64,000 nt of DNA from Terriglobia bacterium (GTDB lineage: Bacteria; Acidobacteriota; Terriglobia; Acidiferrales; UBA7541), in assembly GCA_023512135.1 (NCBI GenBank), contig JAIMAG010000006.1:1-64000 (forward strand). Reading direction: 5' to 3'. Below are positions 49,509-59,583 of the stretch, in pieces; positions within the stretch are counted from its first letter, which is position 1, and each line of letters starts with the position of its first letter. Both the position numbers and the translations under genes were made by a program. The notes under the pieces were generated by a model. The model worked only from the letters and a program-made list of their open reading frames with translations. It searched no databases and had not been told where the DNA came from.

Positions 49509-50372
49509 CTACTCCGGAAACAGCCGCGCAGCGTTTTCATAAAGAATCTTCCGCTGTGCGGCCGGCGAAACCGGCAGCGCCAGGAACTGGTCAATGTTAC
49601 CACGTACGTCGGGCACACCGGGGCCGGGCCAGTCGGTGCCGAACAAAACTTTATCCGCAATCTCTTCGAGGCGCGGAAAATAGTCCAGCAGCTTTTTCGG
49701 AGGGATGCCGCTGATGTCCATGTACATGTTCTTGTGGCGCCGGACCAAGAAGAAGGCTTCTTCCATCCACAGCGGCCGGCCGCCATGGGCGAGAATCACC
49801 ACAAGGTCGGGGAAGTCTATCCCCACATCGTCGGCCAGAATCGGCTGGGCATACAGATTCCGCGCACCCGGGAAAATCGACGTGCCGGTGTGGATCATCA
49901 CCGGCAGGCGGTTGGCCTGCGCGCGTTCGTAGACGGCGGCCAGCGGTCCCAGGCCGTTGCGGTACGCGTTCGGCGCGAATCCCTGATGCGAGGGATGAAT
50001 TTTCAGCGCGCGAATGCCGATGCCGGCCAACCGATCGACCTCGGCAGCTGCATCGGTGACGTGCATCGGGTGTACGGAGCCGAAGGCCAGCAGCCGCTTG
50101 GGATCGGCCTGGCAATAGGCGGCAATCCAATCGTTCACCTCGGGGGTGAAGCCCATCACGTCCGGGCTGACGTAGTTGATCAGTCCGGCGCGCTCCACAC
50201 CGATGCGGTCGAGAAATTTCAGAAATTCCGCCGGCTGCCGGGAGAACGTTTCAATGGTGGCAAAATCGGCGCGGCCGCGGCGCATCAGTTCCAGCGCTTC
50301 CGACCGAAACATGTGCAGAGGCTGAATGTGAATATGGATGTCAATCACCGGTATCGCGTTCATGTTCGACAT
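49509..50372 (-). CDS. Amidohydrolase family 2 (ACMSD-like) protein
   Basis: A 287-residue TIM-barrel metal-dependent hydrolase or decarboxylase. The HxH motif is in VIDIHIHIQP, then GSVHPMHV, IKIHPSHQGF-like KIHPSHQGFAP, MIHTGTS, ILAHGG and LFGTDWPGPG with the catalytic aspartate. Relatives decarboxylate or hydrolyse aromatic and ring-cleavage acids. It overlaps the hcrB 3' end by about 32 nt, so it is co-translated with the reductase. Start 50372 or 50363. The precise substrate is unknown. Confidence 0.85.
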   Translation of the reverse strand: MSNMNAIPVIDIHIHIQPLHMFRSEALELMRRGRADFATIETFSRQPAEFLKFLDRIGVERAGLINYVSPDVMGFTPEVNDWIAAYCQADPKRLLAFGSVHPMHVTDAAAEVDRLAGIGIRALKIHPSHQGFAPNAYRNGLGPLAAVYERAQANRLPVMIHTGTSIFPGARNLYAQPILADDVGIDFPDLVVILAHGGRPLWMEEAFFLVRRHKNMYMDISGIPPKKLLDYFPRLEEIADKVLFGTDWPGPGVPDVRGNIDQFLALPVSPAAQRKILYENAARLFPE

Positions 50373-51393
50373 TGTCCCTGCGGTCCCAGCACGCCTGCAG
50401 CGCACGGCGGGTGAAGACGCGCAGCATTTCGCGGCGATACTCCGGTGTGGATGCCGAGGTCGTGAGCGGCTTGCCGGTGCGGGTCACGGCGCGCGCGACT
50501 TCCTCGATCAGTTCGGGCGAAGCTTTCTGGCCGACCAGCAGTGCTTCCGCCTGGGGCACAAGCAACGGAGCCGGATTCACCGCCGCGATGGCCACCCGCG
50601 CGGCATGGCAGATGCCCTGGTCATCCACCTCCATCGCCACGGCAACGCCCGCCAAAGGATAATCGATCGAATTGCGGATGCGCAGCTTGCGATAGGTGCC
50701 GCGGCGGCCGGCGGCACGCGCGGGGATGTGCACGGCGGTGAGCAGCTCGTCGTGGCCGAGCGCAAGGCGATCCATGCCGTCGTTTTTGTAGAGTTCGCGC
50801 AGCGGCCGGCGGGTTACGCCTCGCGGGCCGGAAATTTCCACCTCCGCATCGAGCGCAAGCAGGGCTGGTGCCGAATCTCCTGACCAGACCGCCCAGCAGA
50901 ATTTTCCGCCCGGGGCCACATGACAGATCGTGCGCGGGTGCGCCGCGTGCGGATTCGGCATCGGCAATTTCAAGCAGCCACCCAGGGCCCGCCGCCAGAA
51001 CTCGGACTGGTTGTACCAGAGGCAGCGCGTCTCCAGGCACAGGTTGCCCCCGATCGTGCCCATGTTGCGCTGCAGCGGCCCGGCGACCGCAGCCACCGCT
51101 TCCGCCAATACGGGAAACTGTTCGCGCACGATCGGTGCGCGTTCCAGTTCCGTCAGGGTCGTCAGCGCGCCGATGCGCAGGCCCTGCCCGGGCGACCACT
51201 CGATCCCGCGCAGCGCGGCGATGCCTTTGATGTCCACGACCAGCTGCGGCGCGTAGAGCTTCATCTGCAGGTTGGGAATCAGGTCGGTGCCACCCGCAAT
51301 AACTTTTGCCTGGCCGGGCGCGGCATCCTGCAACACCCGGAGCGCTTCGGCGACCGTCTGCGGTCGCACCAGGGAAAATGCCGGAAGGGTCAT
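50341..51393 (-). CDS. hcrB: 4-hydroxybenzoyl-CoA reductase, FAD/4Fe-4S (beta) subunit
   Basis: A 350-residue CO-dehydrogenase-type flavoprotein. FAD loops are VIAGGTDLIPNLQ and GTIGGNLCLETRC. It carries the insertion unique to 4-hydroxybenzoyl-CoA reductase beta subunits: C124 in TRCLWYNQSEFWR, C140 in GGCLKL, C157 in ICHVA and C166 in KFCWAVWSGD. These line up with the four 4Fe-4S ligands known in the Thauera enzyme, with about 8 extra residues between the second and third. That inserted cluster inverts electron flow for substrate reduction. It overlaps hcrA by 4 nt. Confidence 0.92.
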   Translation of the reverse strand: MTLPAFSLVRPQTVAEALRVLQDAAPGQAKVIAGGTDLIPNLQMKLYAPQLVVDIKGIAALRGIEWSPGQGLRIGALTTLTELERAPIVREQFPVLAEAVAAVAGPLQRNMGTIGGNLCLETRCLWYNQSEFWRRALGGCLKLPMPNPHAAHPRTICHVAPGGKFCWAVWSGDSAPALLALDAEVEISGPRGVTRRPLRELYKNDGMDRLALGHDELLTAVHIPARAAGRRGTYRKLRIRNSIDYPLAGVAVAMEVDDQGICHAARVAIAAVNPAPLLVPQAEALLVGQKASPELIEEVARAVTRTGKPLTTSASTPEYRREMLRVFTRRALQACWDRRDNVEHERDTGD

Positions 51394-53729
51394 GACCCGC
51401 CTCCCGGATGTGTGCCGGAGTTCCTTGTCTGAGAGGCAGCCTGCCGCCGCTTTTCCTGCAATGCGGCGAGAATTTTCTCCGGCGTGATCGGCAACGAGTG
51501 GATGCGCACGCCGACGGCGTCGTAGACGGCACTGGCGATGGCCGGCAGCGTCGCGGCCAGCGATCCTTCACCGGCTTCTTTGGCACCGAACGGGCCTTCC
51601 GGGTCGTGGGATTCCACAATGATGGATTCGATCAGCGGCGTTTCCAGCGTAGTCGGGATGCGGTATTCGAGCAGGGAGGGGTTCATCAGGCGACCGTTGC
51701 GCCAGATCATCTCTTCCTGCACCGCCTGGCCGAAGCCCATATAGACGGAGCCTTCCACCTGACCTTCGACGGTGAGCGGATTCAACGCCCGGCCGCAGTC
51801 GTGCGCGACAACGATACGGTGTACGGTGAGCTGGCCGGTTTCCGGGTCTACGCTGACCTCGGCGGTCTGAGCGCTGTAGCTGTAGGCCGGCGAGGGCCCC
51901 ACACCGGCACCTTTGAACGTGCCCCCTCGCGCCTCTTCGGGCGGGGCGTAGGTGCCTTTGGCAACCAGCGCGCCCTGGGCTTCCAGCGCGGCGGCAACCG
52001 CCTCCTCAAAACTGAGGGCCCGCTCGCGGTCGTGGCGCGGGAAGATGCGTTCGTCGCGCGCCTCCAGCACTTCCGGGCCGCAGTCGAGTTTTTTCGCTAC
52101 CGCGTCGAAAAGCTGCGCGCGCAGATTCCGCGCGGCTTCCAGGCACGCGTTGCCGGCCATGAAGGTCACACGGCTCGAATAGCTGCCCAGGTCGACGGGC
52201 GTCAGCTCGGTATCGGCGGCCACCAGCCGGATCCGTTCGGGCCGAACGCCCAGGACTTCGGCGACGATTTGCACTTGAATGGTGTCCGAACCCTGCCCAA
52301 TTTCACTGGCGCCGGTGTAGACCGTGATGCCGGCATCGCGGTCCACCTTGATATGCACGGTCGTATGCGGCATGTTCGAGCGGATGATCGGGTTGGCTGC
52401 GCCGCTGACGTAATGGCTGCAGGCCATGCCGATGCCACGCCCGAAGGGCAGCTTGCCACGCTTCGCGGTCCAGCCGGAGCGCTCGACCACACGCTCGATA
52501 CACTCCGGCAAACCGTAGCTGGTGACGCGCAACTGGTTGGCCGTGATGCACGGCGCGCGGAGCAGATTCCGCCGGCGCAGCTCGACCGGGTCGAGCCCGG
52601 CCTTTTCGGCCAGCACGTCGAGCAGGCACTCGAAGGCAAAGCGCATGTTCACCGTGCCGTGGCCGCGCATGGCGCCGCAGGCAGGCTTGTTGGTCAGCAC
52701 GCGGTAGCCATCGTAGCGCGCGGCGGGAATGTCGTAGATGGCGTGGAGCAGGTTGCCGGAATAGAGCACCGTGACCGGCCCGTAGCCGCAGTAGGCGCCG
52801 CCATCCTGCACCATGCGGGCTTCCACAGCCGTGATTCGGCCCTCGCGGGTGATGCCGACCTTCAGGTCCATGTAACTGATGGGCCGGCCGCGGTGGGCAT
52901 AGAACACTTCTTCGCGCGTATAGGTGATTTTTACGGGTCGCCGGGCCTTCTTCGCCAGCACCGCCGCGGCGACCTCCAGGGGAATGACTTCGCTTTTGCC
53001 GCCGAATCCGCCGCCGACGAGTGGCTTGACCACGCGGATGTGGCTCATCGGCATCTCGCAGACGTTCGAGAGCGTCCGCTGCAGGTAATAAGGCACCTGC
53101 GTCGAACTGTAGACGGTGAGCCGTCCGTCCGGCTCCCAGACAGCGAGGGTAGCGTGCGGCTCCATAGCCGCGTGGGTGACCTCGCCGGCATAGAAGCGTT
53201 CGGCGTGGATGATTTCGGCTTCGGCAAAGCCCTGCTCTACATCTCCGAACACATGGTGATATTCCTTTTCGATGTTGCGCGGTTTGTTGCTGTGAATCCA
53301 GTGCTCGGGATTTTCCACCTGCATTGCCGCGAGCGGATCGAACACGGCGGGCAGCGGTTCGTATTCGACATCAATCAAGGCCAGAGCCTGTTCGGCAACT
53401 TCCAGACTGGTGGCGGCGACGGCAGCGACGTTGTCTCCGATGTAGCGGACCTTGTCGGTCTGAAACACGCGCTCATCGTGTCCGATCGGCAGGATGCCGT
53501 ACGGGTGGGGTGCATCCCGCCCGGTGGCGACAGCTTTCACGCCCGGCAGCGCTTCGGCCCGGGTTGTATCGATGCGTCGGATGTGCGCGTGCGGATACGG
53601 AGAGTGCAGAATCTTGCCGAACAGCATGCCGGGCACAACCAGATCGTCGGCGTATTTGCCCAGGCCGGTGACTTTGGCCCGGGCATCCGTCATGGGCAGC
53701 GGCTTTCCGATTATGGAAAACTCGGCCAT
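51390..53729 (-). CDS. hcrA: 4-hydroxybenzoyl-CoA reductase, molybdopterin (alpha) subunit
   Basis: A 779-residue xanthine-oxidase-family catalytic subunit. It contains the small ab hammerhead domain (DARAKVTGLGKYADDL), STQVPYYLQRTL, VGGGFGGKSE, REEVFYAHRGRP, CGAMRGHGTV, LSHYVSGA-like SHYVSGAANP, IGQGSDT, GSYSSRVTFMAGNA and the C-terminal GPFGAKEAGEGSLA with the active-site glutamate. Order and wording follow the Thauera 4-hydroxybenzoyl-CoA reductase alpha subunit closely. It removes the para-hydroxyl group of 4-hydroxybenzoyl-CoA. Spaced 3 nt from hcrC and overlapping hcrB. Confidence 0.92.
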   Translation of the reverse strand: MAEFSIIGKPLPMTDARAKVTGLGKYADDLVVPGMLFGKILHSPYPHAHIRRIDTTRAEALPGVKAVATGRDAPHPYGILPIGHDERVFQTDKVRYIGDNVAAVAATSLEVAEQALALIDVEYEPLPAVFDPLAAMQVENPEHWIHSNKPRNIEKEYHHVFGDVEQGFAEAEIIHAERFYAGEVTHAAMEPHATLAVWEPDGRLTVYSSTQVPYYLQRTLSNVCEMPMSHIRVVKPLVGGGFGGKSEVIPLEVAAAVLAKKARRPVKITYTREEVFYAHRGRPISYMDLKVGITREGRITAVEARMVQDGGAYCGYGPVTVLYSGNLLHAIYDIPAARYDGYRVLTNKPACGAMRGHGTVNMRFAFECLLDVLAEKAGLDPVELRRRNLLRAPCITANQLRVTSYGLPECIERVVERSGWTAKRGKLPFGRGIGMACSHYVSGAANPIIRSNMPHTTVHIKVDRDAGITVYTGASEIGQGSDTIQVQIVAEVLGVRPERIRLVAADTELTPVDLGSYSSRVTFMAGNACLEAARNLRAQLFDAVAKKLDCGPEVLEARDERIFPRHDRERALSFEEAVAAALEAQGALVAKGTYAPPEEARGGTFKGAGVGPSPAYSYSAQTAEVSVDPETGQLTVHRIVVAHDCGRALNPLTVEGQVEGSVYMGFGQAVQEEMIWRNGRLMNPSLLEYRIPTTLETPLIESIIVESHDPEGPFGAKEAGEGSLAATLPAIASAVYDAVGVRIHSLPITPEKILAALQEKRRQAASQTRNSGTHPGGGS

Positions 53730-53732
53730 GGC

Positions 53733-54257
53733 TTACTGGCTCCCCTGGGCGGCAGTCGGGCTGGCAGCGGCAGTTCGCGGCACCTGCTGCCAGCGCTCCA
53801 GTGCCAATCGCACCGACTCGTAGATTTGCATGTAACCGGTGCAGCGGCACAGATTGGACGAAAGTGCCTCGCGAATCTCTTCGAGCGTCGGCTGGGGATT
53901 GCGATCGAGCAGCGCTTTGGTTGCAATCAGAAATCCGGGCGTACAGTAGCCGCACTGGGCTCCGCCGGAAACCGCAAAACCTTCCTGCACCGGATGCAGT
54001 TCGCCGGGCGGGGCTAAACCTTCCACCGTGGTGATCTCCGCTCCGGCATAGCTGGCCGCCAGAGCCACACAGGAAAGCATCGGCGTGCCGTCGATCAACA
54101 CGGCGCAGCAACCGCAACTGGAATCATCGCAGCCGCGTTTGGAACCGGTCAGGCCCAGATCTTCGCGGAGCACGTCGAGGAGCAGTTTGTTCGGCGGCAC
54201 CGCCACCTGGCAGGTTTCGCCGTTGACGCACAGCTTCAGCAGGATTTTTTCCATCAT
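53733..54257 (-). CDS. hcrC: 4-hydroxybenzoyl-CoA reductase, 2Fe-2S (gamma) subunit
   Basis: A 174-residue two-cluster ferredoxin-type subunit. The plant-type cluster motif GCDDSSCGCC (C43, C48, C51) plus C63 comes first, and the helical cluster GAQCGYCTPGF with NLCRCTGY second. A proline/alanine-rich tail of about 20 residues exceeds the family length. First of three reductase genes, 47 nt after the selenoprotein-like gene. Confidence 0.92.
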   Translation of the reverse strand: MMEKILLKLCVNGETCQVAVPPNKLLLDVLREDLGLTGSKRGCDDSSCGCCAVLIDGTPMLSCVALAASYAGAEITTVEGLAPPGELHPVQEGFAVSGGAQCGYCTPGFLIATKALLDRNPQPTLEEIREALSSNLCRCTGYMQIYESVRLALERWQQVPRTAAASPTAAQGSQ

Positions 54258-54304
54258 GTCTCGTTCGGTTTTCGCTGCAACGAACCGGACTTCGCGGCGT
54301 GCGG

Positions 54305-54652
54305 CTAGTCCGCCAGTTTGCTGAGCGCCTCCTCATCGTAGCCGAGCACAATCTGTCGGCCGCGAAGGACGATCGGTCGCCGGATCAGATTGGGCTCCTG
54401 CGCCATCAGCCGGAGCGCCTCGGCCCGCGAGGGCGGATTCTGTTTCATCTTGCGCTTCCGATAGAGCTCGTGCTTCGGGTTCAGGAACAACCGGTAATCG
54501 CGATCCCCGATCAATGCATCCAGCTCGGCCACCGTGAGCGGCTCGCGGGTCAGGTCGCGCAGTTCCAGCTCGACCCCTTTGCGTTGCAAGAGACCTCTTG
54601 CCTTGCGACAGCTGGTTCAGGTCGGCTTGTGAAAGAATTTCAGCTTGGCCAT
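54305..54652 (-). CDS. Spx/ArsC-like protein, probable selenoprotein with in-frame UGA
   Basis: Read through an in-frame TGA at 54619-54617, the frame encodes 115 residues: MAKLKFFHKPT-U12-TSCRKARGLL, then LELRDLTREPLTVAEL and NLIRRPIVLRGRQIVLGYDEE. This is the Spx/ArsC thioredoxin-like fold, where the redox CxxC reads CTSC and RRPI is the conserved cis-proline loop. TGA occupies exactly the first cysteine. The ATG at 54652 has AGGAGAG about 9 nt upstream, and a SECIS-like hairpin follows the TGA. Without read-through only 11 residues, or a TTG-started fragment without the active site, would be made. It lies between rhodanese and hcrC. Likely role: thiol/selenol redox reactions. Confidence 0.85.
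54565..54615 (-). promoter_or_regulatory. Bacterial SECIS-like element
   Basis: In the mRNA, GCAAG (54601-54597) and CUUGC (54590-54586) pair around the loop AGGUCU (54596-54591). That loop is identical to the apical loop I recall for the E. coli fdhF SECIS, including the early G. The loop begins 20 nt after the UGA, within the usual range. An outer pair CCAGCU/AGCUGG (54615-54610 with 54570-54565) can extend the stem. SelB would bind this element to insert selenocysteine. Confidence 0.8.
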
Positions 54653-54691
54653 CTTTGCTTCTCTCCTGCGCCCGTGGTCGCGTCTTTCCCG

Positions 54692-55042
54692 CTAGTAGCG
54701 GGGCATCGCCGGATCGATTTCCACGGCCCAGCGCTCAATGCCGCCGGCCAGCGAACGTACGCTCTCAATTCCCTGTGCCCGGAGCCAGGCCGCCACGTTC
54801 AACGAGCGAATTCCGTGGTGACAGTAGACCACCACTTCGTCGGCCGCAGCAAACAGCTCCAGATGGCGTGCGACTTCGCCCATCGGCACCAGTCGCGCAC
54901 CGGGCAGGCGGCAGATGGCGTATTCGTGCGGCTCGCGACAATCCACCAGCAGCAGTGGCTCACCCCGGTCGAGTTTGGCCTTCACTTCCCGTGGCTCGAT
55001 CTGCAGTTCGTCCAATGCGTCCTCGCTTGCCCGGACGTCCAC
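54692..55042 (-). CDS. Rhodanese-like sulfurtransferase
   Basis: A 116-residue single rhodanese domain: LLLVDCREPHEYAICRLPGARLVP, and the active-site loop CHHGIRS with cysteine 74, then LAGGIERW. It transfers sulfane sulfur or acts as a redox/selenium carrier. The GTG start at 55042 is 12 nt after the CoA-transferase alpha stop. It ends 39 nt before the putative selenoprotein gene. Supplying sulfur to the molybdenum reductase or selenium to the selenoprotein are both possible but unproven. Confidence 0.88.
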   Translation of the reverse strand: MDVRASEDALDELQIEPREVKAKLDRGEPLLLVDCREPHEYAICRLPGARLVPMGEVARHLELFAAADEVVVYCHHGIRSLNVAAWLRAQGIESVRSLAGGIERWAVEIDPAMPRY

Positions 55043-55054
55043 AGCACCGGCCCG

Positions 55055-55978
55055 TCAGTAGCCGAAATTCGCCGGTACGGAAAACGCCGGCTGCCGGACA
55101 GCCAGCGGTGCCAGCCGCTGTGCGCCGAGCCGCTCCAGATACTCGCGACGGTCGTGGACCTCGTACACCCAGCGCCGCAGCCAGTGCTCGTACCCTTCCA
55201 GGGTGCGGCTTTGCTCGTGGTATTCGGTGAAGAACCGATGATCGCGGCCATAATAGCCCTGCACCGGGGAGGGATGTGCCCCCCAGGGTTCGTGCACCAC
55301 GGCGCCAACGAGCAGACCGGGGATCAGCGTGCGATTCGGGTCCGAGGCGATCACGTCTGGCGCAACGATTTCTTCGGCCACGACGATCACCTGCCGCGCC
55401 GCACGCGCGCCGTCTATGGCCACACCGAAGTTGCCCCACAGGTGCGCGTTGCCGAATTCATCGGCGCGCTGCACATGGAGAATGGCTACGTCGGGCCGGA
55501 GCGCGCGCACCGCGACCAGTCTTTCCTCGTTCACCGGCGAGGGAAATTCCCGCAGATTCCCGTTGCGGGCCAGCAACTCCGAGCCGAGTGTCGCATAGGT
55601 GGGCAGGAACGGAACGCCGAGCGCGCCAGCGTGCAAGGCCAGTGCCAGCGTGAAGTTGGAATAATCCACCATCTGTACGGGCTGCGGAATGTTCTGCTCC
55701 ACTGCCCGGCGCAGGCAGTAGCCCACTCCTGCCGAAACGTTGCCGACCCAGGCGGCCAGGACTCGCGACACCACGCCCGCACCGATCAACTGGTCGAACA
55801 GAATATCCGAGATCGGTCCGATCAGCGTCAGATCGCGTCGTCCCTGGCGAATGATCTCGTGGCCGGCAGCGAACGGGATCATCTGTTCCATCTGGGCACC
55901 GAGCAGCACTGTCTGGCCATCCCGCACATGGCGGGCGATCGCTTCGCGCATGCTGACCAGCTTGGACGCGGCAGCCAT
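55055..55978 (-). CDS. CoA-transferase family alpha subunit (GctA-like)
   Basis: A 307-residue protein of the glutaconate CoA-transferase alpha/IpdA family: MREAIARHVRDGQTVLLGAQMEQM, LIGPISDILFDQLIGAG, VGNVSAGVGYCLRRAVE, NFTLALALHAGALGVPFLPT, VAILHVQRADEFGNAHLWG and VVVAEEIV. It partners the beta subunit gene at 56754. Either it moves CoA between acids, which could activate an aromatic acid, or it is an IpdA-like ring hydrolase. The start at 55978 is 8 nt after the hydratase stop. Confidence 0.88.
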   Translation of the reverse strand: MAAASKLVSMREAIARHVRDGQTVLLGAQMEQMIPFAAGHEIIRQGRRDLTLIGPISDILFDQLIGAGVVSRVLAAWVGNVSAGVGYCLRRAVEQNIPQPVQMVDYSNFTLALALHAGALGVPFLPTYATLGSELLARNGNLREFPSPVNEERLVAVRALRPDVAILHVQRADEFGNAHLWGNFGVAIDGARAARQVIVVAEEIVAPDVIASDPNRTLIPGLLVGAVVHEPWGAHPSPVQGYYGRDHRFFTEYHEQSRTLEGYEHWLRRWVYEVHDRREYLERLGAQRLAPLAVRQPAFSVPANFGY

Positions 55979-55986
55979 GATTCCGT

Positions 55987-56757
55987 TCAGCTCCGGCTCT
56001 GCCAGACGGGCGCGCGCTTTTCGAGAAACGCGCGGATGCCTTCCAGGGCGTCCGGGGTTTTCATCAGTTCCTGCAGATAGAACTCTTCGATGCGGTGCAG
56101 ATCGGCCTCGAAGCTGGCATCGACGCGGCGGCGCAGTTCCCGGCGGGTCATGCGGAGCACGGTGGCACTCATCCGCTCCAGCTCGCCCAGCAGCTCGGCC
56201 ACGGCCCCGCCCAGCCCGTCGTCGGGTACCACGCGCGTGACCAGGCCCAGCGTTCTGGCCTCCGCGGCGGAAATTGTCCGCCCGGTCAGAATCAGCTCCA
56301 GCGCCGCCCGCGGCCCGCACAGCGCCGGATAGGTAAGCATCGCCACCGGCGGGAAGCAACCCAGCCGGATTTCCGGCTGGCCAAACTGGGCCGACTCTGC
56401 AGCAATCACAAAGTCGCAGAAGGTGGCCAGCTCGGCGCCACCACCCAGGCAATGGCCGCGGACGGCAGCAATGGAGAGGCAATCGGCGCGCCAGATCTGC
56501 CGCAGCACACCGTGGAACGCACTGAGCATTTCTTCGACCCGGCCGGGGAGGTGGTCGCGAATCTCCACGCCGGCGGAAAACGCGCGTTCGCCGGCACCGC
56601 GAAAGACGACAAAATCGCACTGTGCGGTCAGCTCGTGCAGCGCTTTGCCCAGAGCGTGCAGCATGGGAATGTCCATCACGTTCAGCGGCGGCCGCTCCAG
56701 CGTCAGCCAGCCCGTTCGGCCGGTGATTTCAGCGCGGACAGTGCCCGGGGCACTCAT
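55987..56757 (-). CDS. Enoyl-CoA hydratase family, cyclohexadienecarbonyl-CoA hydratase-like
   Basis: A 256-residue crotonase-fold enzyme. TLERPPLNVMDIPMLHALGKAL, VFRGAGERAFSAGVEI, LSAFHGVLRQIW, RGHCLGGGAELATFCDFVIAAES and GQPEIRLGCFPPVAMLTYP resemble dienoyl-CoA hydratases (Dch/BamR type) more than fatty-acid hydratases. The oxyanion-hole alanine/glycine residues are intact. It lies inside the CoA-transferase gene pair, overlapping the beta subunit (ATGA) and 8 nt before alpha. It probably hydrates a conjugated ring or ring-opened acyl-CoA; the exact substrate is inferred only. Confidence 0.82.
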   Translation of the reverse strand: MSAPGTVRAEITGRTGWLTLERPPLNVMDIPMLHALGKALHELTAQCDFVVFRGAGERAFSAGVEIRDHLPGRVEEMLSAFHGVLRQIWRADCLSIAAVRGHCLGGGAELATFCDFVIAAESAQFGQPEIRLGCFPPVAMLTYPALCGPRAALELILTGRTISAAEARTLGLVTRVVPDDGLGGAVAELLGELERMSATVLRMTRRELRRRVDASFEADLHRIEEFYLQELMKTPDALEGIRAFLEKRAPVWQSRS

Positions 56758-57557
56758 ACGACACCCGTCCAGAAGCCGCCGGGGTCCAGCTCGCGCAGCA
56801 CTGCGAGTTCGGCGGCGGTGGGCGGCGGGGTTTGCTTCAACTGCTCGGCCACCCGCAAAGTCCAGCCCGTGTTGGCCAGCACGTCTTCGACGCGCACACC
56901 CGGATGGACCGAATCCAGAAACGCTTCGCCGTCGGCCCCGAAACGGAGCACGCCCAGTGTGGTGATCACCGCGGCGGGGCCGGTGCCCGCCGGCAGCCCC
57001 TGCGCGCGCCGCCAGTCGTTGCCCGTGCCGTAGCCGGGCGAGGTCAGGTAGCTGACCCGTTCGACCAGACGCGTTTTTTCGTGCTTCAGCAGCACGACGG
57101 TGCGTCGGGCCAGGCAGGCGATGTCGCAGGCACCGCCCGAGCCGGGCAGGCGGATGTTCTGCTGGCCGCGCCGCGCCCAGGTCGAGTTCAGATTGCCGAA
57201 GCGATCCACTTCGGCGGCACCGAGAAAACCCAGGTCCACGCGGCCCTGCTGCAGCAGGCCCATCACGTCGAGCATCGCCCCGCACCAGGTGGCGCCGCGC
57301 AGGTTCGGCGGGTCCGCCATCGTGTAGAGCAGCTCCGCCGCGGGCGTTTCGCGGAGTACGCCGTTTTCAAACAGGCCCACGGCCCGCGGGGCATGCGTGC
57401 GCTTGGCCAGCAGGAACGCCAGCAGGGGCAGTCGCATGCCTACAAAGACCAGCTCGCCATCGCGCACTTCGCGTGCGGCGGCCGCCACCATCAGCTCGCC
57501 GAGCGAATAGCCGTGGGCCGGTTGTGGCGCGGCTTCCGTATGCGCCGGCGCAGGCAT
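56754..57557 (-). CDS. CoA-transferase family beta subunit (GctB-like)
   Basis: A 267-residue protein aligning along its length with Acidaminococcus glutaconate CoA-transferase beta: VFVGMRLPLLAFLLAKRTHAP, VGLFENGVL, FLGAAEVDRFGNLNSTW, LPGSGGACDIA, LLKHEKTRLVERVSYLTSPGY and EDVLANTGWTL. Glutamate 64 (ENG) sits at the position of the catalytic glutamate that forms the CoA thioester (ESG), arguing for true transferase activity. It is 3 nt after the BoxB-like stop. Confidence 0.88.
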   Translation of the reverse strand: MPAPAHTEAAPQPAHGYSLGELMVAAAAREVRDGELVFVGMRLPLLAFLLAKRTHAPRAVGLFENGVLRETPAAELLYTMADPPNLRGATWCGAMLDVMGLLQQGRVDLGFLGAAEVDRFGNLNSTWARRGQQNIRLPGSGGACDIACLARRTVVLLKHEKTRLVERVSYLTSPGYGTGNDWRRAQGLPAGTGPAAVITTLGVLRFGADGEAFLDSVHPGVRVEDVLANTGWTLRVAEQLKQTPPPTAAELAVLRELDPGGFWTGVV

Positions 57558-57560
57558 GGC

Positions 57561-58685
57561 TCAGTTCACCTGCGGAATCTGCTTGGGCGCGATCCATTTC
57601 GGCTCGTTCGCCTGAATGTCGTTCACCAGCCGGACGTCTTCCGGCGACGGCAGCACTTCCTGGAGATGCTGCTCGTATTCGGCCGGGCTGAGCAGTTCGC
57701 CGGTGACCGAGTACGGCTGGCCCGCGAACTCCCCGATGCGGCGGTGGAACTTCAGGTCGGGCACATACAGCTTCGGCTGGCCCGCGGGGATGTTCTTGTT
57801 CAACTGCTCGATCAGTTGCCTGCACTCGAGATGATAGAGGTAGCGGTTGTGTTCGTTCAGGTGGCCGAGATCGGCTTCCTGTTGCGCCTTCGGTTCATCG
57901 AACCGACCTTTCAGGCCCCAGACGTAGAACCAGTGCGCCGAGCTGGAATTGTCCACGCCGAACAGGTCATAGCTGACCGGCACCCACTTGTTGATGTACT
58001 TCTGCACAATCGGAATCGGCACCACGCCCGCCTTGATGACGCGTTTCAGGCCGTCCTGGCCGGTGCCCAGGTGAAAGGATTCTTCGCGGAGCATCGGGAT
58101 CATGGACTGCGCCAGCGGCGCGAAGGCCGAATAGCTGAGCATGGTGAGCTGGAACTTGCCGTCGCGATCCACGAAATCGGTATAGGTGAAAAAGTCCAGC
58201 CAGTTGTCCACCGGCTGGTTGAAGGCGCCGAGCAGCCGTTTCTGTTCGAACGCGCGTCGCTCCAGCATTTTCTGCGCTTCAATGCGACCGCCATAGCCGA
58301 AATGATGGATCAGCAGATGGCACATCTGCCAGCCGTGGCGCATCTCCTCGGTGACCACGCGGCACAGCGACTGGCGATCGTGCTCGCTCGGCGCCGTCTG
58401 GAACAGGTAGCGCTGCTGCTCGACCGATGCGAATTCCGTGTCGCCCTGATAGATGATCAGGTTCTGCAAGGCATCCCGGATGCGCTGGTCGGGGATCTGG
58501 ATCACCTTCTCCCACTTCGGTCGGCCGCGGAAGGCGCCGAACTCGATTTCGTTCGAACGCGTGGGCCCGAACTTGGCTTCGAACTTGTAATTCACGATTT
58601 CCGGGTAGTCCACGCCCACGTCCTTGATCCATTCGTGGAACAGCGTCACCCAGTCATCGAACGTGCTGATGCGTGCAGCAGGCAT
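57561..58685 (-). CDS. BoxB/PaaA-like di-iron aryl-CoA epoxidase
   Basis: A 374-residue di-iron monooxygenase. Ligands are visible: E84 in GDTEFASVEQQR, E114 and H117 in EEMRHGWQ, D173 in DRDGKFQL, E202 and H205 in EESFHLGTG. Spacings (30, 59 and 29 residues between successive ligand groups) equal those of benzoyl-CoA epoxidase BoxB, and LLGAFN, WLDFF and GLKGRFDE also match it. BoxB is about 470 residues, so this is a shorter relative. It should form an arene epoxide on a CoA thioester using O2. The reductase partner (BoxA) is not in the window. Confidence 0.87.
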   Translation of the reverse strand: MPAARISTFDDWVTLFHEWIKDVGVDYPEIVNYKFEAKFGPTRSNEIEFGAFRGRPKWEKVIQIPDQRIRDALQNLIIYQGDTEFASVEQQRYLFQTAPSEHDRQSLCRVVTEEMRHGWQMCHLLIHHFGYGGRIEAQKMLERRAFEQKRLLGAFNQPVDNWLDFFTYTDFVDRDGKFQLTMLSYSAFAPLAQSMIPMLREESFHLGTGQDGLKRVIKAGVVPIPIVQKYINKWVPVSYDLFGVDNSSSAHWFYVWGLKGRFDEPKAQQEADLGHLNEHNRYLYHLECRQLIEQLNKNIPAGQPKLYVPDLKFHRRIGEFAGQPYSVTGELLSPAEYEQHLQEVLPSPEDVRLVNDIQANEPKWIAPKQIPQVN

Positions 58686-58770
58686 TGCGTATGTTCCTCC
58701 TGTACTCTGTACTTTCCGAATCGGCTAGCCAAACCCACAGCATTCTGCCAGCAGGAATCATCCCGGGGCC

Positions 58771-59583
58771 TCACTGGCCGCGAAAAATCGGCTTGCGTTT
58801 CTCGAAAAAGGCCGACATCCCTTCGGCGGCGTCGGCCGAGCGAAAGCACTCGACCTGCCGGGCGATTTCCGCGTCCATGGCGCGGCGCAGCGCGTCCAGT
58901 GCATCGCCGAACAGCACCTGCTTGATGCCGCGCACGGCCAGCGGCGGTGCGGCGGCCAGCCGCTCGGCCAGCGCATGAAACTCTTCCTCCAGCCGGGCCG
59001 CGGGCACGACCCGGTTCACCATGCCGATGCGCGCGGCCTCTGCGGCTGAAATCATCTCGCCGGTATAGAACAGCTCCGCGGCCCGCGCCGGCCCGACCAG
59101 CCGCGGCAACAGGAAGGTGCCGCCGAAGTCCGGGAACAGTCCAACACGCGCGAAGTTTTCGCCAAAGCTGGCCTCCTCCGAAGCGATGCGCAGGTCGCAG
59201 GCCAGCGCGAGATTCATTCCCGCGCCGGCGGCAGGGCCATTCACCGCCGCCAGCACCGGCTTGGGCATTGCGCAGATCTCCAGGACTGCAGCGTGGCCGG
59301 CTTCCAGCAGCCGGCGCAGTTCTTCCGGCGCGTTGCGCTGGCGCACTTCCGCGAGCAGCTTCAGGTCGCCGCCCGAGCAGAAGGCGCGGCCGGCGCCGGT
59401 CAGAACCACGCAGCGCACCGTCGCATCCTGAGCAGCGCGCTGCAGCGCCGCCCGCAGCGCTTCCGCCAGCTCGACGTTGATTGCGTTCAGCCGCTCCGGA
59501 CGGTTCAACGTCAGAATGGCGACTGCGCCCTCGCGGCGCTCGAGCACCGCCGGTGCTACGGTGGCCTGGGTCGGTCCACTCAT
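58771..59583 (-). CDS. PaaG-like enoyl-CoA hydratase/isomerase
   Basis: A 270-residue crotonase-fold protein: LTLNRPERLNAINVELAEAL, LTGAGRAFCSGGDLKLLAEV, VNGPAAGAGMNLALACDLRIA, FGENFARVGLFPDFGGTFLLPRLVG and FEKRKPIFRGQ. The FARVGLxPDxGG segment with its aspartate is typical of PaaG-type isomerases that convert ring epoxides to oxepins. It is immediately upstream of the BoxB-like gene with an 85-nt gap. A fatty-acid isomerase cannot be excluded. Confidence 0.85.
   Translation of the reverse strand: MSGPTQATVAPAVLERREGAVAILTLNRPERLNAINVELAEALRAALQRAAQDATVRCVVLTGAGRAFCSGGDLKLLAEVRQRNAPEELRRLLEAGHAAVLEICAMPKPVLAAVNGPAAGAGMNLALACDLRIASEEASFGENFARVGLFPDFGGTFLLPRLVGPARAAELFYTGEMISAAEAARIGMVNRVVPAARLEEEFHALAERLAAAPPLAVRGIKQVLFGDALDALRRAMDAEIARQVECFRSADAAEGMSAFFEKRKPIFRGQ

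Follow-up and report, generated by a model that had tools for sequence, protein, structure and literature searches.

The window analysed here, a stretch of 64,000 nt from a soil-type Terriglobia bacterium (contig JAIMAG010000006.1), carries on its minus strand a gene (54305..54652) for a 115-residue protein of the ArsC/Spx/YffB thioredoxin-fold type, MAKLKFFHKPT-U-TSCRKAR..., recognized from a translation that reads through TGA, from Pfam and from a structural model. The reading frame opens with an ATG at 54652, which has a Shine–Dalgarno-like AGGAG 10 nt 5' of it (54663..54667), and closes with a TAG stop (54305..54307); its sole in-frame stop is the TGA at codon 12 (54617..54619), and the frame is otherwise intact once this TGA is read through. 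The TGA is followed by ACC AGC TGT, giving an x-T-S-C motif in which TGA takes the position of the first Cys of a CxxC pair, and the second residue of that pair, Cys15 (codon at 54608..54610), is invariant in the family alignment. The preliminary description of the locus had reported this frame, with TGA at the first Cys of the motif, its ATG and Shine–Dalgarno sequence, and no other disruption, and each of these features was confirmed. It had also predicted that gene callers would lose the active site, and it was right in kind: the only ORF that a mechanical list gives for this gene has 94 aa, and its start, a TTG (54589), comes after the active-site codons. Annotation without a selenocysteine (Sec) model would truncate the genes of this subfamily past the active site.

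Immediately upstream, also on the minus strand, lies the gene for a single-domain rhodanese with the catalytic sequence VYCHHGIR (54692..55042; Pfam Rhodanese, 9.4e-19). The next gene downstream encodes the [2Fe-2S] subunit of a molybdenum hydroxylase resembling 4-hydroxybenzoyl-CoA reductase (53733..54257, minus strand; TIGR03193 7e-54, below cut-off), and the genes for the molybdenum-binding alpha subunit (51390..53729, minus strand; TIGR03194 1037 bits, above the cut-off of 994.55) and the FAD subunit of such an enzyme (50341..51393, minus strand; TIGR03195 4.3e-95, below cut-off) lie beyond it. On the other side are upstream acyl-CoA catabolic genes (55055..59583, minus strand), encoding CoA-transferase A and B, two enoyl-CoA hydratases and a BoxB-like oxygenase. 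The cluster as a whole (49509-59583, minus strand) comprises 4-hydroxybenzoyl-CoA reductase-like, BoxB-like, CoA-transferase, crotonase and amidohydrolase genes, a content that suggests the breakdown of aromatic acyl-CoA compounds.

Homologues of the gene with the in-frame TGA are common in the Acidobacteriota: the gene was found in 61 genomes in a search of 101 relatives, a count that includes a few weak matches belonging to other ArsC-like proteins, and in 60 of the 396 genomes of a phylum sample. One sequence (L124), in which the UGA was followed by a shifted frame that looked like an assembly frameshift, was left out. Across the non-redundant UxxC/CxxC genes, the alignment of homologues shows TGA at codon 12 in 62 and Cys (TGC or TGT) in 42, with the second Cys kept. 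The TGA is present in a same-genus homologue at 96% identity, and UGA members also occur in records titled Proteobacteria or Binatota (L062-L064). It might be argued that the TGA arose as a sequencing error or as the nonsense mutation of a pseudogene, or that the real start is the downstream TTG; the window does come from a draft assembly of 51 contigs, and mechanical ORF finding yields only the truncated product. However, other genomes supply 61 more non-redundant genes with the same UGA, which makes the misreading of a TGC or TGT very unlikely, and close relatives share this TGA rather than the unrelated disruptions that the preliminary description had named as the mark of a pseudogene. Conservation extends to the residues ahead of the UGA (K9 is invariant) and, with covariation, to the hairpin that follows it; the genome also holds the full Sec machinery (see below), and we consider an error or a pseudogene extremely improbable. 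Use of TGA as a sense codon, for Trp or Gly, throughout the genome would likewise account for a single in-frame TGA within a conserved gene. Here, however, at least six neighbouring genes in the window end in TGA, so that TGA serves this genome as an ordinary stop; relatives carry Cys, not Trp or Gly, at codon 12, and the genome has selA, selB and a tRNA-Sec with anticodon tca. A change of the genetic code is the least credible of all the explanations considered.

Downstream of the UGA is a 6 bp hairpin, GCAAGA-GGUC-UCUUGC (54586..54601, minus strand; loop at 54592-54595), which we describe as a bacterial SECIS element (bSECIS) on the basis of comparative hairpin counts and covariation. Counted from the UGA, the stem begins at 15 nt and the GGUC loop at 21 nt; a hairpin had been placed 20 nt after the UGA in the preliminary description, and although the hairpin is present, that figure is the distance to the AGGUCU loop and not to the stem. 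Folding of the single RNA sequence, which had been proposed as a check, gave no significant result (z −0.7), and a comparative test was used for that reason. A hairpin was counted when a perfect stem of 5 bp or more enclosed a GU-containing loop of 3-6 nt, and the expectation was taken from 400 shuffles per gene in which amino acids were kept and codons drawn by usage. By this measure the hairpin is found in 57 of the 62 UGA genes (4.1 expected from the synonymous-codon shuffles) and in 3 of the 42 Cys genes (1.9 expected); the five UGA genes that do not show a perfect 5-bp stem are L047, L062, L129, L135 and L151. An earlier, stricter test, which demanded a loop of exactly 4 nt (xGUx), gave 45/62; lineages whose loops have 3 or 5 nt escaped it, and the broader test took its place.

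To assess covariation, 22 different UGA sequences were aligned without gaps. For the stem and the loop-closing pair, 97.2% of cells are paired, against 37-60% when one strand is slid, and there are 11 double-sided compensatory cells, against 0-2 with the partner strand slid; the covariation score of 0.266 (0.151 in shuffled alignments) was reached by none of 500 shuffles. Compensation is seen both in the loop-closing pair, where G-C becomes A-U (GGUC to AGUU), and in the stem, where GCAAGA/UCUUGC becomes GCAAAA/UUUUGC. In further lineages a GU loop is retained on stems of quite another sequence, such as CCAGGA-GUU-UCCUGG, and GCAAGGC-GGUC-GCCUUGC occurs in a different register. The covariation and the near-absence of the hairpin from Cys homologues support the SECIS claim made earlier. 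With its 6 bp stem, GGUC loop and distance of 21 nt, the window hairpin falls within the published bSECIS limits of a 3-9 nt loop, a 4-16 bp stem and a G in the first two loop positions (PMC13188914), with the loop 16-37 nt from the UGA (PMC10778597). A scan of the region against Rfam found no family. The SECIS of Escherichia coli fdhF resembles the window element in its GGUC/AGGUCU apical loop with GU and in its short stem just after the UGA, but it has a bulged U, whereas the stem of the present family is uninterrupted over 6-8 bp and lacks that bulge, and AGUU loop variants occur in other lineages.

A search of the window genome for the Sec genes, as the preliminary description had advised, recovered the complete set: a tRNA-Sec (74 bits) whose anticodon ARAGORN gives as tca, selB (394.7 bits, 1-575 of 581 positions), selA (572.4 bits) and selD (371.4 bits). 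The SelD gene itself (L160, G000:C44:33623-34558) has an in-frame UGA where Sec is expected (AAGUAAK); the hairpin that comes after it, GAGUCC...GGACUC, likewise carries GGUCU in its loop, and SelD is a probable second selenoprotein of this genome. Formate dehydrogenase matches in the window genome were below cut-off, and none had an in-frame TGA. Among the relatives, selB was detected in 33 of 34 genomes with the UGA gene compared with 13 of 20 with the Cys gene (Fisher p 0.003, a value that ignores relatedness). The only UGA genome in which selB was not detected (G099) is 82% complete, and in one genus with Cys genes (g5) selB was not found in five of six genomes searched. UGA conservation, the hairpin, the Sec machinery, the Cys homologues and the TGA stops together exclude a pseudogene, a sequencing error and a change of genetic code.

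Judging from the TGA and Cys homologues, the Sec machinery and the otherwise regular use of TGA as a stop, we put at about 0.95 the probability that the window gene encodes a genuine selenoprotein, with Sec at UGA codon 12. The most probable mechanism is that SelB, with its Sec-tRNA-Sec, attaches to the GGUC-loop hairpin that follows the UGA, and that ribosomes for this reason read codon 12 as selenocysteine.

The distribution of Sec and Cys within the family points to exchange between the two. The pattern on a tree of 69 proteins, built with the Sec/Cys residue masked and the SECIS-coding columns kept in, needs no more than three changes: Sec would have been lost in L053/L054 and, separately, at the base of a 22-row group, and gained in L047/L073. 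L054 (5727-6068) has a Cys codon with the hairpin intact and L053 (1680-2021) a Cys codon with the hairpin broken or decaying, as expected for relics of a recent replacement of Sec by Cys; SECIS relics of this sort have been reported before (PMC1794560). L047 (1501-1830, G049:C270) and L073 (2001-2327, G047:C85), both on the minus strand, are UGA genes inside a Cys clade. Support for the surrounding clades is 100/100 (15 rows) and 97/82 (9 rows), with weak inner branches, and the placement of the other 20 Cys rows in one clade, a group chosen after the tree had been seen, was rejected (AU p 0.0008). The hairpin of this pair differs in sequence and register, being GCUCGAC-AGUUC-GUUGAGC in L073 as against GCRAGA-RGUY-UCUUGC elsewhere, and of the two only that of L073 is significant alone (p 0.0075). 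We give an even chance to the reading that one genus of Acidobacteriota lost Sec, by a change of UGA to Cys, and that a sublineage later regained it, by a change of Cys to UGA with a SECIS built anew; the alternative is repeated loss with a remodelled hairpin. If regain is the true account, a single protein family would document how a recoding signal is lost, persists as a relic and is regained. Close pairs of Sec and Cys proteins whose SECIS is present, relic or absent offer a natural experiment both on the benefit of selenium to a thiol reductase and on the rise and decay of recoding signals.

L151 (G292:C9:26270-26605) is the lone UGA gene (UTKC) of an ArsC-like group that is more distant and whose other members have CTKC, and no GU-loop hairpin was found in it. 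L093 (G087:C306), also more distant and ArsC-like, has RPG-UTSC and is about 22% identical to the window protein.

As regards function, the window protein matches Pfam ArsC (9.1e-17), and an AlphaFold model made with Cys in place of Sec has a pLDDT of 94.7; the best PDB matches of this model in Foldseek are Spx, ArsC and YffB, with TM about 0.8 (YffB 1rw1, TM 0.83). Residues K9, U/C12, T13, C15, R16, N88, R92, P93 and G104 are invariant in the family alignment. The N-terminal U12-T-S-C15 active site is predicted to face the conserved R92-P93 motif. Because of this fold and motif, we think it probable that the product is a UxxC thiol/disulfide (or persulfide) reductase like YffB; the earlier proposal of a UxxC oxidoreductase thus fits fold and motif, its biochemical role being putative. 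In such a reductase, Sec12 would attack an oxidized sulfur substrate (a disulfide, mixed disulfide or persulfide), Cys15 would resolve the intermediate by forming a selenenyl-sulfide, and Sec12 and Cys15 would be regenerated by thioredoxin or a low-molecular thiol; we infer both the reductant and the substrate, as well as any functional link to the adjacent rhodanese. YffB of Brucella, which keeps a single Arg of the ArsC triad, has been proposed to be a GSH-dependent thiol reductase (PMC3169414). YffB resembles the window protein in fold, length and a single triad-like Arg, but E. coli YffB has CDTI, without the second Cys, where the window protein has UTSC, and the identity is about 22%.

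Alignment with E. coli ArsC, E. coli YffB and Bacillus subtilis Spx bears on two other functions. A redox-sensing transcription regulator that binds the alpha-CTD of RNA polymerase, as do Spx and MgsR, would agree with Spx being the best solved relative by sequence and fold, with the name Spx/MgsR carried by the nearest NCBIfam model (TIGR01617), with the shared CxxC (here U/C-x-x-C) and RRPI motifs (RRPI/V in the family) and with the alignment of window R16 and R92 with Spx R14 and R92. The Spx loop with Gly52, an alpha-CTD contact (PMC4180751), nevertheless falls in a two-residue gap, the window protein, at 115 aa against 131 aa in Spx, lacks the C-terminal tail, its score does not reach the TIGR01617 and Spx cut-offs, and the gene is located in catabolic operons; a regulatory role therefore appears unlikely. 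Arsenate reduction, to which the Pfam ArsC match would point, is considerably more doubtful. Within the triad R60, R94 and R107, R94 alone is matched, by R92; R60 is aligned with an Asn conserved without exception in the family alignment, and R107 lacks a counterpart; TIGR00014 scores 50 bits against a cut-off of 106, and there are no ars genes among the neighbours examined.

It is possible to speculate that the selenoprotein and the adjacent rhodanese handle persulfides as a pair that would, for instance, reduce sulfane sulfur or pass it on, perhaps to supply the sulfido ligand of the adjacent molybdenum hydroxylase. In 30 of 61 homologous loci the gene immediately upstream encodes a rhodanese, with an active-site Cys in the sequences read, and genes like those of 4-hydroxybenzoyl-CoA reductase come next downstream in part of the family. 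However, the other 31 loci lack the rhodanese, the molybdenum enzyme is absent from many, and gene neighbourhood is weak functional evidence. As the rhodanese is confined to about half of the loci and aromatic-CoA genes to part of the family, we regard the link as a tentative suggestion, with the odds against it.

Selenoproteins of the ArsC type have been known for some time, as the preliminary description had stated: they were listed in 2006 (PMC1794560), and 'Arsenate reductase 2' (cd03032, ArsC_Spx type, UxxC) was listed in the GOS selenoproteome in 2008 (PMC2398784). By its description, on which alone the comparison was made, 'Arsenate reductase 2' shares with the window family the ArsC_Spx-type fold, UxxC and the existence of Cys homologues, but it is of marine metagenomic origin and Acidobacteria are unmentioned (PMC2398784). 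A catalogue of 2026 lists NF041106 (UxxC) and TIGR00014 (UxxS) and mentions neither Spx nor Acidobacteria (PMC13188914). NF041106 (ArsC_rel_Se_1, ArsC family (seleno)protein) is likewise of the ArsC superfamily with Sec or Cys at the same site, yet the window protein scores 33.1 bits against its cut-off of 85 and every member tested is far below it; in the window genome this model matches only the window gene, well below cut-off. The nearest curated model is TIGR01617 (arsC_related, Spx/MgsR), which is not a selenoprotein model; the window protein (65.7) is below its cut-off of 75.05, and three distant UGA members pass (L128, 90.7; L130, 91.6; L132, 78.3). Since the window protein and the tested members are far below the NF041106 and TIGR00014 cut-offs, the window protein apparently belongs to a widespread, uncatalogued subfamily of the known UxxC ArsC-like selenoproteins, one that is common in an abundant phylum for which the literature searched lists few selenoproteins.
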